64,000 bases of DNA, taken from the NCBI RefSeq assembly GCF_000003815.2, contig NC_049992.1:5953094-6017093 (forward strand), written 5' to 3'. Position numbers and translations under genes: made by a program. The stretch is from Branchiostoma floridae. Lineage: Eukaryota > Chordata > Leptocardii > Amphioxiformes > Branchiostomatidae. The number at the start of each line of letters is the position of its first letter. The first letter of the stretch is position 1. The notes under the pieces are model-generated. The model searched no databases and was not told where the DNA came from. It was given only the letters and a program-made list of their open reading frames with translations. Shown one piece after another: positions 21,654 to 39,340 of this stretch.

Positions 21654-21805
21654 GTCAGTTCTTTTGTGCCTTTTAAATGTCGCTGTAAAGAGGAGAGTAG
21701 TTAGCCGATGTGCCATGCGTATTTCATGTACTATGTGATTTACTGTCAGCAGTAGACATTTAAAATCAGCAGTCGAAGGATTCAGATTACTCTCTTTTCA
21801 TTGTG

Positions 21806-21898
21806 CTATTTGACCTGATCAGTGATTGGTCCCGAAAGTTTGACCCTTGACCCCACAGCACCAAGAGATGCCAAACTGTCAGTCCAACTGTGGCCCTC
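21806..21898 (+). repeat. 93-bp direct duplication, unit A (contains exon-like sequence)
   Basis: This stretch is identical, as far as I can read, to 24371-24463. It contains an acceptor CCCCACAG and the frame PRDAKLSVQLWPS. After the shared part the two copies diverge completely. Confidence 0.9.
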
Positions 21899-24308
21899 GT
21901 CTCCGACGGACCTTCCACTCTCCGCCTCCACCGCCAAAACAGAAATCTCGTCGCCGCAGAGGTCGGTCTGGGACGCCGAAGGGACCTCGAGGGTTTAGCG
22001 GTATCGCCGGGTCGGTGTACGGGGGACTGTGTTCTCTCGTGTTTCAATTACCGTGTGTGCTTTCAGGAGTGCAGAGCTACATGTACCGTCTTTGTTCTTG
22101 CTGTGCTGGATGCCTCGAATTCTGAGGACCGGCCGTATTGTTCTAACATTTGCATTTCTATCACGTATTCGTATGTATGAGCTCTTAGCGGCTCGTGGGA
22201 GGATGACCGCCTTACACCATTTTTCGTTTTACAGCTTTATCCTTTTCTCCTAGGCCGGGTCGAGTTTAGGACGTTTTTAATTCACGCTGGCGTTCTGTTC
22301 TGCGTGGAGCTGAGTGATTCTTGTGTGGTTTCGTGACTTTGTGTTTGTTTTTAGCAGCGTTCGACAGCCACTTCCAAGCAGATAGTTGGTGCCCACGTGG
22401 CAAGCCGGTGGTTCTCTGAAATTCCTTTGTTGCCATGTTTTTTGCATCCTCTTTTTCCTCTGCAAAGGAAACCTGTGGGTGTTGGCTTTTAATGCTGAGG
22501 TGTGGAGCAGAACGAGAGTTTCCAGATTTTATGTCATTTTCTGATTTTCGTGAATATTTTCAGGCAGGAACAGAGAAAGACGATGGCATGGTCCAGGAGG
22601 CTGTGTTGGGGTTTTCTGCTACCATTTGTTTTAGTTCGCTGTGTATGAGTGCGTACCTGTAAGGCGTGGTGATTGAGTTGTGGACACGCGTGGCCCAGTC
22701 CTAACCGCGTTCGCGGCACCCTAGACCGTTTGTGGGAGGGCTGGGCGGTGTGGAAGATGCGTATGTTTTAGATTTGTCTGTCTGGGACCGGACCTGTTGC
22801 CGGGCGCCCGTCCCTTCCCACTGTCTCATGGTTCACGTGTTGTTCATACAGGTCTGACGCTCTCCCCCCTCCAACAACAGGGATGCGCGGGACACACCAC
22901 CACCCAGAGCCGGCACAAGCCACCATCAACCTCGCCAGATGTGCGGCCCGATAGGACCCGTTGGTGGCCTGCACAAGCTTCAGCAGCAGAGAGGGCTCAA
23001 GACGCGCCAGGAAACCTGTTAGCCGAACAGTTAGGCTGTGATGTTTTATGTTGTGAACCATGTTCTTTGTGCCGAACATAGTGCTACAAGGGACAGCGGT
23101 CAGAGGATCAGGGTCGACTGGCGCTCCAGTCCCCGACACCGCCCAGCCCCTGCCGGTCAGTTCAGCTAACCCCGCCGACAACTCAAGGAACTGTAAGTCA
23201 TTTTCCCCCTACTTTTCGTGAATAGATTTTGACATGTCGTTCTCCAGTGCGATGGGGTGCCGCGGGATGCTGGAGGGTTAGGAACTAATCGAGCAACCCT
23301 GTTTTGAGATTGGTCTGACCAAGAACGTTCTTTGGTCTGACGCCTTTTTTGTTTTTTTAGCACGACAAGATATCATTCAGTGCGATGGGGTTCCGCGGTA
23401 AGCTGAATGACCCAAAAAGTGAGCAATCTTTCTTCAGCTTGGTGTGACGTTATCCAGTGCGAAGGGTTTCCGCGGAAGGCTGGACGATCCAAGAAATTTG
23501 TGTTCTTTTAATCCTTTTTTCGTGATTTGTGGTGATTTCATCCAGTGCGAAGGGGTTCCGCGGAAAGCTGGATTCCTGGAAAACCATAAAAGTTGTGTAC
23601 GCTCCTGTTTTAACATTTAGCGATTTTATCCAGCGCGACGGGGTTTCGCGGAAGGCTGGATAACATGCTATGCGGGAGTGTGCAAGGACTTGGTCCGGAC
23701 TGAGGCTTGGTTATAGTGTATGTGGGACACGGGCATTAGGAATGGAGTGAGCAATATGTTTTGCGTTTTTTTTTTTGAAATTGTGTGCTTAGGATTTTGT
23801 TGTCTTTCGGAACATTGCGGATTTCGCCAGTTGCACTAGAGAGCTCCCTTTATGGGACTTCAGAAGGGCGTGGTTCCCAAAGTCGCCGAGAAGATAGGGT
23901 AGCATTCGAAGATTGTTCTTTCCTTCCTGTTTTCGCTCTTTTTTATGTAACGTGGAGATTTTCAGATCGGTTTCTTGGCGTTGATTTTCTCTCACTTTTT
24001 CGAAGCGCGCTCTGCGGCCGATTAGAGTGGGTAAACGTTGTTTTGACGAAGTTCAGAGAAGAACATGATGAAGTGTGGGGGACAAGTCGAGAGAAATAAG
24101 AAAGGGATTAGATATGTAAGGGGAGAGGAAAGGTGAGAGAGTGTTGATAAGGACGGGAAGACGGGAAAGGGATGAAGATAGGGAGTGATTATAACAGTTT
24201 TCAGGAAGAGGAAAGGAGCGACTAGATACCTTTGGAAAGTATCATAGTAGGGAGGCACTAGGGGACAGGAAAGGAAAGGCTCAAGAAGCCAGAGAGAACA
24301 AAGGCGGA
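21899..24308. other. GC-rich non-coding insert between duplicated blocks
   Basis: About 2.4 kb lies between direct copies of the A block. It has no long convincing open frame; frames up to 137 codons exist but match nothing I know. It contains the five-hairpin array (23242-23663) and ends in a purine-rich tract (24085-24310). A donor-like ACT|GTAAGT occurs near 23190 just before the hairpins, so part of it could be a spliced non-coding transcript. It may be a mobile element of unrecognised type. Confidence 0.5.
23242..23663 (+). ncRNA. Array of five related hairpins with compensatory stem changes
   Basis: Five 34-base units start at 23242, 23375, 23452, 23540 and 23628. Each has a 22-base core of the form TGCGANGGGGTTYCGCGGNA, then NG, enclosed by a short stem. 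The stems are CTCCAG/CTGGAG, TCATTCAG/CTGAATGA, TCCAG/CTGGA, ATCCAG/CTGGAT and TTATCCAG/CTGGATAA. The outermost pair changes C-G to A-T and the third pair changes C-G to T-A with pairing kept, which points to selection on, or inheritance of, structure. Spacers of roughly 40-100 bases are largely unlike, with faint similarity between the last three. No known RNA family was recognised. The strand is a guess. Confidence 0.45.
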
Positions 24309-24310
24309 AG
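24085..24310 (+). repeat. Purine-rich tract
   Basis: About 225 bases are dominated by A and G on the + strand (GAGAGAAATAAGAAAGGGAT, GGGGAGAGGAAAGGTGAGAG and similar). Mirror-like purine tracts can form triplex DNA, and in retroelements short ones prime plus-strand synthesis, but this is far longer than such a primer site. Confidence 0.6.
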
Positions 24311-24372
24311 ACGATTTCCGCATCACTTCATAACGGAGGGGCCAAGGACTGATTCAGGACAAATAGGATACT
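24309..24372. repeat. 64-bp direct duplication, unit B
   Basis: The block starting AGACGATTTCCGCATCACTT and ending AATAGGATACT is repeated exactly at 24585-24648. It abuts the second A block. Confidence 0.9.
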
Positions 24373-24463
24373 ATTTGACCTGATCAGTGATTGGTCCCGA
24401 AAGTTTGACCCTTGACCCCACAGCACCAAGAGATGCCAAACTGTCAGTCCAACTGTGGCCCTC
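24371..24463 (+). repeat. 93-bp direct duplication, unit A'
   Basis: This is the second copy of 21806-21898, including the acceptor and the PRDAKLSVQLWPS frame. Here that frame continues GYVWSLKRPTRPALDKISVL before a stop. Which copy, if either, is a working exon is unclear. Confidence 0.9.
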
Positions 24464-24470
24464 CGGCTAC

Positions 24471-24588
24471 GTCTGGAGCCTGAAACGACCCACCCGCCCA
24501 GCCCTCGACAAGATTTCTGTTTTGCGCGGACGGTGACGCCCGCCTAAGGGCGGTCGTCTCAGCGCTTAGGTGACTTTAGGCTCCAGAC
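24471..24588. mobile_element. 118-bp element with inverted ends
   Basis: GTCTGGAGCCTGAA at 24471-24484 is mirrored by TTTAGGCTCCAGAC at 24575-24588 (13 of 14 pairs). A second small inverted pair, CCTAAG/CTTAGG, lies inside at 24543-24570. The segment AAGATTTCTGTTTTG is, inverted, shared with AAAACAGAAATCT near 21938 in the first unit. It sits between the A' and B' copies. Confidence 0.5.
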
Positions 24589-24648
24589 GATTTCCGCATC
24601 ACTTCATAACGGAGGGGCCAAGGACTGATTCAGGACAAATAGGATACT
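24585..24648. repeat. 64-bp direct duplication, unit B'
   Basis: This is the second exact copy of 24309-24372. The order A, insert, B, A', small element, B' implies one tandem duplication whose second unit lost the 2.4-kb insert or never had it. Confidence 0.9.
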
Positions 24649-24700
24649 TTTGTGTACGCTGTGCTGACTCAAAGACAGTTTGTATGTTTCGTTTTTGTAG

Positions 24701-25255: not shown

Positions 25256-25625
25256 CATTACATTTTATATTAAATGAAAACTTTGGCAGTCATATATTCA
25301 ACACAAAATATACAATGAATCCGCCATAAATGTATGGAAAACTCTTAGTTTAAGTCTTAAACGTGTCTTGATTTACAATATATATAATAGGGGTAACACA
25401 CTGGGATCGACTTCGCTCGTGACTTCAGTTACCACACCCAGAGTAATGCGTATATACATTATTTACAAAATAATTAGTGTGCACTTTTAAAAGCGTCACC
25501 TGGCGACAATTCTACAAAACGCCGTAATCGCGATACATACTTATACTTATCCTTGTTGCCAAACACTGTGTATATGAATAGACAAGACTATAGTTGCCAG
25601 AAAGGTACCTTATAAGTCAACAGAA

Positions 25626-25800
25626 AACGATAGATCCTAAGTATAGTATACGATAGATCCTAAGTATAGTAAACGATAGGTCCTAAGTATAGTAAACGAT
25701 AGGTCCTAAGTATAGTAAACGATAGATCCTAAGTATAGCATACGATAGGTCCTAAGTATAGTATACGATAGATCCTAAGTATAACGTTAGTATACAATCG
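25626..25800. repeat. 22-bp minisatellite
   Basis: About seven tandem copies of ACGATAGATCCTAAGTATAG plus TA are present, with GATC/GGTC alternation between copies and a decayed last unit. The AT-rich stretch on either side (25256-25625, 25801-26364) shows no gene. Confidence 0.95.
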
Positions 25801-27529: not shown

Positions 27530-28480
27530 ACATTCCTGTCCCTGGTGCTTAAATCCTTCACCCATAACATGAAGCCTGTTTATAGTTCTAAATATTATCT
27601 ACCATAATCAGCATGGTTTTCTCTGGTGCTTAACACTGTCAACCAGAATCAACATGCCTGTTCCTTGTGCTGAACACTATCGACCTAAATCCACATGCCT
27701 GTCCTTGGTGCTGAACGCTATCAACCTAAATCCAGGTGCCTGCCCCTTTTGCTGAACACACTATCAACCTGAACTAACATGACTGTCCTTGGTGCTGAAC
27801 ACTGTGAACCTAAATCAACATGCCTGTCCCTTGTACTGAACACTATCAACCTATATCAACATGCCTGTCCTTAGTGCTGAACGCTATCAACCTAAACCAA
27901 CAAGCCTGTCCCTTGTGCTGAACACTATCAACCTAAATCAACATGCCTGTCCTTGGTGCTGAACACTTTCAATAATATTAACATGACTGTCCCTAGTGCT
28001 GAACATTATCAACCTAAATCATCATGCCTGTCCTTGGGGCTAAATACATTCAACTGATACCAACATTTCCTGTCCTTGCTGCTGAACACTATCAACCTAA
28101 ATCACCATGTCTATCCTTGGTGCTAAACATTATCAACCTAAATCAACAAACCCGTCTTGTGTGATGAACACATTCCAACTAAATCAAAATGCCTGTCCTT
28201 GGTGCTGAACAGTTTCCTCACCAATCAACATGCCTGGCCTTGGTGCTGAACACTATCAACCTAAAGCAACATTACTGTCCCTGGTGCTGAACACTATCAA
28301 CCTAAATAACATGCCTGTCCCTGATGATGAACACTATCAACCTATAGCAACATGCCTGTCCTTGGGGCTGAACACTATCAACCTAAAGCAACATTACTCT
28401 CCCTGGTACTGAACACTATCAACCTAAATCAACATGCCAGCCCTTGGTGCTGAACACTACAAACTGATATTGATATGCCT
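27530..28480. repeat. 41-bp minisatellite, about 23 diverged copies
   Basis: The consensus runs CTGTCCTTGGTGCTGAACAC, then TATCAACCTAAATCAACATG, then C. Copies differ by substitutions and small indels, and units are most regular between 27650 and 28450. Open frames inside are repeat artefacts. Confidence 0.95.
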
Positions 28481-37377: not shown

Positions 37378-38395
37378 GAGAAGTTTAAAGATCCCCAAGA
37401 TAGAGAGTCATTACAGTCATTACGTATGTAATATGAAATATGTGAATTTTCAGTCGAATTTAGGACCAGTTTGAATATGGAATGTGTTTTTTTTGCCACA
37501 GAACACTCTTTCTAAGCTAAACTTTCTAACTAAATCAACTAGGCATATTTTAGAAAACGGAAAACTGTGTAGCACACGTACACGGTAAGATTTGAGGCAT
37601 ACACACGGCGGATTTTTATCTAACTTGGGCGAGATATGAGCGAGAGGTTACTTTCCTAACTATCATGATCTTTTGGGAGATGTACCAGTTACCGTTAGTT
37701 TCCCTGGGGACCACGCGAGAGCTAGTTGCAGTAGAACGTTGCCCATAGCAACCGTCCACCATGTTTAGATTTTATGTTGCTATTAATCATCCCATACAAG
37801 ATATGTATAGAATCCTCTGAAAATCACTGATCACCAAAATGAATTGAAATGACCATTGCTAATTGCCGCCGTAATGATGAGATATTGTTTAAACGGTTTG
37901 TCGATTGTATTGATAGCATGCGCACAACTGAAGACGATTTAAGATCAAATATGATGATATTTGATTTTTGAGTAGGTCGACTTGGAAAGACAGAATTATG
38001 AAGCCAACCTCACTTTATTGTTTTCCGTGGCACTATATCAGGGCTCTTTCTCTTATATCTTCTGTAATGGACATGCTATGTTTGGTGTTTTTTTAGTGAC
38101 AATTTCAAGTTAGATTAAAAAAAACGGTGTTGATTTCGGACATCCAGTCAATGCTTTTTACATGTACAATATATGAAAAATAATGACAATATGACACCGA
38201 TAACTAGTTTTAACAGTTTCATACAAAGAATTGAATCGAAGAACAGACTTGAAATTCGGTAAAGGTAGCTCCATAGCCTTTTTTGAGGCCAGAAGGGCAG
38301 TAGGTTGTTAACTGTCGGCATTGGAAGGTGGAGCCCAACCCTTTCCATCCATTGCTTTTTAACAACCCTTACCGAAGTCATGTACCCGTTTGGCT

Positions 38396-39340
38396 AAGGG
38401 CACAATATCAGCAGCATGGCAGGATTCGAATTCAGGGCTTCTGGTTTGTGTGAAAGGTTACTTTCGATATTCAGCTAAATTTGATAAAAGACATCAAGAA
38501 AGTAGATCACTGTGATTAAATCTTTTACATCTGGGAGAAGTGTGGAAGGCCCTTTCCTAAGGGCACAAGATCAGTAGCATGGCAGGATTCGAGCTCAGGG
38601 CTTCTGGTTTGTTTAAAGAGTTACTTTCGATATTCAGCTAAATTTGATAAAAGACATCAAGAAAGTAGATCACTGTGATTAAATCTTTTACATCTGGGAG
38701 AAGTGTGGAAGGCCCTTTCCTAAGGGCACAAGATCAGTAGCATGGCAGGATTCGAGCTCAGGGCTTCTGGTTTGTTTAAAGAGTTACTTTCGATATTCAG
38801 CTAAATTTGATAAAAGACATCAAGAAAGTAGATCACTGTGATTAAATCTTTTACATCTGGGAGAAGTGTGGAAGGCCCTTTCCTAAGGGCACAAGATCAG
38901 TAGCATGGCAGGATTCGAACTCAGGGCTTCTGGTTTGTTTAAAGAGTTACTTTCGATATTCAGCTAAATTTGATAAAAGACATCAAGGAAGTAGATCACT
39001 GTGGTTAAATCTTTTACATCTGGGAGAAGTGAGGAAGGCCCTTTCCTAAGGGCACAAGATCAGTAGCATGGCAGGATTCGAACTCAGGGCTTCTGGTTTG
39101 TTTAAAGAGTTACTTTCGATATTCAGCTAAATTTGATAAAAGACATCAAGGAAGTAGATCACTGTGGTTAAATCTTTTACATCTGGGAGAAGTGAGGAAG
39201 GCCCTTTCCTAAGGGCACAAGATCAGTAGCATGGCAGGATTCGAACTCAGGGCTTCTGGTTTGTTTGAAGAGTTACTTTCGATATTCAGCTAAATTTGAT
39301 AAAAGACATCAAGGAAGTAGGTCATCACTGTTGTTAAAAG
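38396..39340. repeat. 163-bp satellite, six copies, containing SINE-like sequence
   Basis: AAGGGCACAAGATCAGTAGC begins each unit at 38559, 38722, 38885, 39048 and 39211, exactly 163 apart, with a more diverged first unit at 38396. Each unit includes GGCAGGATTCGAACTCAGGG, which on the minus strand resembles a Pol III B-box, and CCCTTTCCTAAGGGCACAA, similar to the local SINE body. Neighbouring copies differ at only a few bases. Confidence 0.95.

Follow-up and report, generated by a model that had tools for sequence, protein, structure and literature searches.

Five short hairpins in a single orientation lie inside a mobile element of Branchiostoma floridae, spanning 23236-23667 of the window (the whole 64,000-nucleotide stretch that was analyzed), and the array that they form is probably a working signal of that element, not a host gene. 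Our leading reading, held tentatively, is that the array acts in cis for a non-autonomous element with split direct repeats, likeliest as a set of RNA hairpins that would be bound by the protein of a partner element for packaging or replication. As a motif, the array is new to the libraries searched; its carrier is a known kind of parasitic element. A hairpin array that looks gene-like can thus belong to the interior of a mobile element.

Each unit is a short stem with CAG...CTG innermost, enclosing the 22-nt core YGCGANGGGKTNYCGCGGNNNG; the five CAG...CTG intervals are 23245-23272, 23378-23405, 23455-23482, 23543-23570, and 23631-23658. When the window was scanned with the core pattern at up to three mismatches, six matches were obtained: the five units, all with zero mismatches, and a sixth, poor match. 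Shuffled sequences gave a mean of 0.63 matches and a maximum of 4. The initial annotation had described five units sharing one core. The array is confirmed, whereas the core letters are not identical across units: unit 3 reads GGGT instead of GGGG, and unit 5 starts with CGCGA and contains TCGCGG. Three details of the stems were read correctly, namely the change of the third pair from C-G to T-A (unit 2), the exchange of C-G and A-T at the outer pair (unit 1 versus units 4 and 5), and the single A-C mismatch (unit 3).

The supposition that no known family has this core agrees with Rfam, which gives no credible match in the window, the array, or the element. There were no matches for the whole window at the gathering score and none for the element at E 1, and the array at lax limits returned one chance-level match lying between units (E 3.2; 17.7 bits versus a cut-off of 37). 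Such a hairpin array is also unmentioned in the titles and abstract openings searched; the element may already be named in subscription papers or in Repbase. An iron-responsive element was rejected as a candidate: the letters CAGTGC, which we take to be the motif of that element, straddle a stem arm in this array, and CAGCGC stands in their place in some units. Dimerization via the CCGCGG palindrome is not favored, given CCGCAG in unit 2 of one copy group.

The carrier element and its copies

The array is carried by what is almost certainly a mobile element with split direct repeats (Table 1). The order A1...B1-A2...B2 was found in 18 of the 19 sequences checked (the window and 17 further copies; L045 failed). 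Two copies outside that check, L036 and L049, have no A or B pair within either. Alignments of copies with window-like ends begin at 21803-21808 and stop at 24647-24654, while those of other subfamilies cover the interior only, these subfamilies having their own A and B repeats. Even where the A sequence of a subfamily differs, A1 and A2 within one copy are 94-100% identical, an agreement such as copying through a circle would give. The B1/A2 junction of the other copies printed has AAATAGGATACTATTT or a near form of it, and the inverted repeat there would be of the kind expected of a tyrosine-recombinase crossover at a circle junction. Flanks differ among the 18 printed copies and, judged by eye, show no target duplication. 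The orientation of the array relative to the split repeats is constant in all 18 copies that have them.

Table 1. Positions of the element, its repeats, and its hairpin units in the window
Feature	Position	Strand	Evidence and remarks
Non-autonomous mobile element with split direct repeats, carrying the array	21806..24651	+	2846 bp; self-repeats, copy alignments
A1 repeat, left end	21806..21898	+	begins CTATTT; 93/93 identical to A2
Second conserved non-coding stretch of the element	22800..22899	+	94-96% among L001, L026, and L050; 86-91% in pairs with L025
Hairpin unit 1	23236..23281	+	self-repeats and covariance model, 64.0 bits (model built including the window's own units)
Hairpin unit 2	23369..23414	+	T-A replaces C-G in stem; self-repeats and covariance model
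Hairpin unit 3	23446..23491	+	A-C mismatch present; self-repeats and covariance model
Hairpin unit 4	23534..23579	+	self-repeats and covariance model
Hairpin unit 5	23622..23667	+	most stable (z -4.0 on +, -4.5 on -); self-repeats and covariance model
B1 repeat, runs into A2	24309..24375	+	98.5% identical to B2 over 67 nt
B1/A2 junction, CAAATAG-GATA-CTATTTG	24360..24377	+	read from sequence; 7-bp inverted repeat flanking 4 bp
A2 repeat	24371..24463	+	self-repeats, copy check
B2 repeat, right end	24585..24651	+	ends ...AAATAGGATACT; self-repeats, copy check

The element's 10 longest frames (86-146 aa) gave no Pfam match better than E 0.13, and among them none to reverse transcriptase, RNase H, or recombinase. 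Because no reverse transcriptase, RNase H, or tyrosine recombinase was matched in the frames tested, the element is classed as non-autonomous with a split-direct-repeat architecture and is not assigned to Ngaro, PAT, or VIPER. Differences between subfamilies over 22880-23190 lack codon-phase bias; together with the absence of a credible Pfam match in the frames tested, this led us to reject a coding remnant. Phage_integrase was matched at 97 genome places among the 100 candidates scored, and the right-end probe at 43. No autonomous partner was found, the nearest of the 97 lying 23.7 kb from any of the 43 right-end places; around the divergent array L051, the wider flanks read N.

The closest relatives in architecture are the PAT-, Ngaro-, and VIPER-like retrotransposons, for which passages of PMC6681497 and PMC9210276 give the order A1 / B1-A2-B2; we take the + strand as sense from this order. 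Like them, the amphioxus element opens with A1 at its 5' end and closes with B1-A2-B2 at its 3' end, with near-identical A and B copies within a copy and a junction with a short inverted repeat. Unlike them, it carries five conserved hairpins, and its tested frames match neither reverse transcriptase nor RNase H nor a recombinase; the words "hairpin" and "stem-loop" are absent from the main text of both PMC3783388 and PMC9210276. DIRS1-like elements are described in part of PMC3266345 as integrating without target duplication. SIRE of Trypanosoma cruzi is a non-autonomous short form of VIPER, according to a section of PMC6681497, and resembles the amphioxus element as a non-autonomous derivative of a split-direct-repeat element. 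It differs in being the A2-B2 end region, whereas the amphioxus element retains A1, a 2.4-kb interior, and the array. TRIM and LARD elements likewise have a non-coding interior but are LTR elements with target duplications. A portion of PMC4558846, in which "hairpin" occurs zero times, states that these non-autonomous LTR elements are thought to be mobilized in trans and that their packaging signal is said to be conserved as a secondary structure; it adds that few non-autonomous/autonomous pairs have been proposed for LTR elements and that identifying the packaging signal is difficult. The repeated amphioxus hairpin, its core nearly invariant, offers a concrete, mutable candidate for such a signal in another class of retroelement.

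The 446-bp array has at least 44 matches in the genome at 72-100% identity (a lower bound, 40 of 62 candidates having been scored), which include four pairs of side-by-side pieces and hence represent about 40 loci, the window's own among them. Searched genome-wide, the unit's core pattern is matched exactly 241 times, and a reversed control never. Of the first 100 of these, 98 lie in clusters of 2-5 and two are single, one of the two belonging to a five-unit array whose other units are less exact (L051); no lone host-gene site for the core was found among them. The stem version with T-A at the C-G/T-A pair occurs at 63 places genome-wide (control, 0). The exact core pattern is absent from viral_contigs and genome_contigs, neither of which includes animal genomes, so that little is said by this result.

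The array behaves as a module, being present where the usual element sequence is missing upstream (L049) and where the match to the window ends about 120 bp past the array with readable sequence continuing (L051). The array had been likened to repeated RNA-protein sites or a structured non-coding RNA. That comparison holds for the conserved core and the kept stem, and the array may be a set of RNA-protein sites; it does not extend to a free-standing non-coding RNA gene, which is ruled out because the array is internal to a mobile element and repeats together with it.

Conservation and pairing of the units

An alignment of 38 copies, running from 22599 rightward, has pairwise identities over all columns of 94% in the units, 88% in the array spacers, 90% upstream of the array, and 80% downstream. 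The contrast between units and spacers is modest here because many copies are close kin. It is sharper in divergent pairs. Between the window copy (L001) and L050, which has diverged most among the copies read with full split repeats, units are identical at 169 of 188 positions (90%) and spacers at 132 of 218 (61%; P = 7e-12), with the core alone conserved about equally to the whole unit (0.90 versus 0.61 for spacers). Other comparisons give 173/188 in units versus 141/210 in spacers (L026 and L050, P 6e-10), 183/188 versus 155/216 (L049 and L050, P 1.5e-13), and 172/188 versus 182/225 (L001 and L026, P 0.003). The five units also keep their order in divergent copies. The initial annotation was therefore right that a conserved core sits among mostly unlike spacers, and the option that it named against itself, a DNA-level satellite, is rejected as the main account since spacers diverge with the units retained.

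RNAalifold was run on an alignment of 69 of the 74 distinct units, which through an oversight lacks unit 4 of L017 and unit 5 of L004, L005, L006, and L010. It predicts a 6-bp stem (columns 8-13 with 34-39) followed by a GCG/CGC helix that has a loop of 9 nt and, on its 3' side, a 5-nt bulge; covariation contributes little to the energy (-0.56 of -8.74 kcal/mol). Over the 69 units and 12 pairs, 92.3% of the 828 cells hold a standard pair, a value reached by 0 of 500 shuffles, and the same is true of the number of cells changed on both sides (24) and of the covariation score. The number of pairs with both sides changed (3) and the number of further pair types (15) do not beat the shuffles, 432 and 285 of 500 reaching them, respectively. 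A filter for indels and N drops unit 2 of L049, unit 3 of L006, and unit 5 of L014 and L024; it also removed unit 1 of L008/L009, one of the two double events discussed below, which was restored by hand.

Because the copies are related, stem changes were mapped on a tree built from the non-unit columns of the 38 copies, and the test used this alignment, not that of 69 units. L031-L042 are wider versions of copies within L007-L030 and were not counted twice. The tree includes L049, whose sequence is unrelated upstream of the array; this lengthened its branch and affects the midpoint rooting. The inner six pairs show 13 changes in 11 events. A standard + strand pair is kept in 10 of the 11 (null mean 0.50, P = 0.00035, 20,000 permutations), the split into inner and outer pairs having been chosen after the units were seen, which makes the small P values somewhat flattering. 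Two events in the inner six pairs are double and compensatory (P = 0.0034): C-G to A-T in unit 1 of L008/L009 and C-G to T-A in unit 4 of the eleven copies of the L026 clade. With the innermost wobble pair excluded, a standard pair is kept in 5 of 6 events (P 0.001), and over all nine pairs in 19 of 37 (P 0.0036). Pairing is unconstrained in the outer pairs p6-p8, where 9 of 26 events are standard, against an expected 0.34.

L051 lies outside the tree test. In this copy the inner six pairs are all intact in units 2, 4, and 5, whereas the p5 pair is broken in unit 1 (T-T) and unit 3 (C-A). Unit 1 of this copy also has T-A for C-G at the middle pair of the inner helix, a double change, though at two CpG sites and in a unit of decayed appearance. 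As judged from these sequence comparisons, a pairing constraint very probably acts on the inner 5-6 bp of the stems; our confidence was lowered slightly owing to the broken p5 pairs of L051. The covariation in the inner six pairs is of moderate strength, the events being few, and it does not tell RNA from DNA. Of the covarying stems originally described, the inner 5-6 bp are kept by compensatory change beyond chance in the larger alignment of 38 copies, and the sixth to eighth pairs are unconstrained. Stem lengths of 5-8 bp are as reported, but only 5-6 bp matter, the outermost pairs giving no evidence of pairing.

Folding, strand, and competing explanations

Folded singly as RNA, units 1-5 of the + strand have z = -0.65, -1.92, 0.41, -0.49, and -4.04 relative to shuffles; in units 3 and 4 the stem is missing from the minimum-energy fold. 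The corresponding values for the - strand are -1.38, -1.28, -0.22, -0.58, and -4.51, with the stem in 5 of 5 minimum-energy folds. The whole array gives z = -0.13 on + and -2.41 on -; that is, the sense array is no more stable than shuffles, whereas the antisense array is. Mean pairing probability of the inner GCG/CGC helix is 0.13 on + and 0.66 on -, and that of the outer stem is 0.86 on both strands. When the pairing test is read for the - strand, 7 of 11 events are standard (P 0.0028), as compared to 10 of 11 on +. As single-stranded DNA, the + strand units adopt the consensus stem and inner helix in 4 of 5 cases, unit 3 being the variant (z = -1.25, -2.28, 0.02, -0.32, and -3.33; clearly beyond shuffles only in units 2 and 5). 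The case for structure is comparative, not thermodynamic. The strand evidence conflicts, and we favor, with moderate confidence, RNA of the sense strand as most likely.

In the mechanism that we tentatively favor, five ancestral tandem copies would be kept as hairpins in the transcript of the element, each presenting its conserved 22-nt core on a 5-6 bp stem. An autonomous partner might provide, in trans, a Gag-like protein or a reverse transcriptase that binds the array several times over, and this multiple binding would cause the non-coding RNA to be chosen for packaging or reverse transcription. A tyrosine recombinase could then insert a circular copy through a junction of the B1/A2 type. 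Packaging signals are often near the ends of an element, and the position of the array, mid-element and not near an end, is evidence against the packaging reading. Other parts of the element are conserved too, including the sequence upstream of the array (90%) and the second stretch listed in Table 1, and the comparative case rests on 13 stem changes. Retroviral packaging and dimerization hairpins and export elements are small, have conserved loops, and act in cis on genomic RNA; the amphioxus array differs from them in having no credible Rfam similarity and an unrelated position and host. A broader proposal is that tyrosine-recombinase retrotransposons possess a dedicated recognition module in this five-hairpin array: with its fixed 22-nt core, it would be a multivalent RNA tag, marking non-autonomous and autonomous transcripts alike for the element machinery and carried between elements with otherwise unrelated interiors; we consider this possible but doubtful. 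The repeated hairpin is a tag to look for in the partner element.

It is unlikely, in our estimation, that RNA is irrelevant and that the units are instead bound by a recombinase, transcription factor, or replication protein as double-stranded, cruciform, or single-stranded DNA. Such sites would be consistent with an inverted repeat that covaries equally on both strands, with the single-stranded DNA folds of the + strand units, and with the mixed strand evidence, in which the inner helix is better on - and either strand gives a significant pairing test. A sequence-specific duplex binder, however, is not expected to tolerate changed arms provided that they pair; the stem wobble changes suit + strand RNA better than the - strand, and the array is far from the ends, where recombination occurs.

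An array without function is still less probable. Here the units would be a decayed tandem array in which mutation, not selection, maintains the pairing: as the element is replicated or reverse transcribed, hairpins might template a switch or units might undergo gene conversion with one another. A stem can reportedly arise and become fixed in a single step by template switching, and hairpin-templated mutation could yield double changes without selection, as set out in part of PMC8794818. The branch bearing the L008/L009 double change is very short (0.0014), in keeping with a single event, and unit 4 of the L026 clade carries the stem letters of unit 2. Conversion of both arms around an unlike core would, however, need two tracts, and this explanation accounts neither for the conservation of the core, equal to that of the whole unit between L001 and L050, nor for the persistence of the five-unit order in divergent copies.

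It would be comparably surprising if the hairpins recruited a host RNA-binding protein, for example for nuclear export or protection from decay, in place of a partner-element protein: simple retroviruses are known to use repeated RNA loops as binding sites for a host export factor, and the module is found in elements whose ends and flanks differ, but the Rfam searches of the window and, at lax limits, of the array and element point to no such signal, and the first 100 of the 241 core matches include no lone host-gene site.

Further features of the element and the window

Several other features were observed. The conserved stretch at 22800-22899 has a splice-acceptor-like sequence near its end. 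GTAAGT at 23193-23198 (9 of 12 aligned copies) and a T-rich run ending in AG at 23345-23360 flank unit 1; the pair resembles a small intron holding this unit, which could be chance. Just after unit 2, at 23411-23418, C runs, mostly followed by A runs, vary in length, as they do in L015, L016, L018, L021, and L023, and this site is a mutable spot within the conserved array. Elsewhere in the window, a + strand frame at 14265-14765 matches Pfam Glyco_transf_29 (sialyltransferase; E 1.2e-9). Tandem arrays are located at 25625-25783 (23 bp x 6.9), 27624-28459 (41 bp x 20), and 38394-39324 (163 bp x 5.7, 98% matches).
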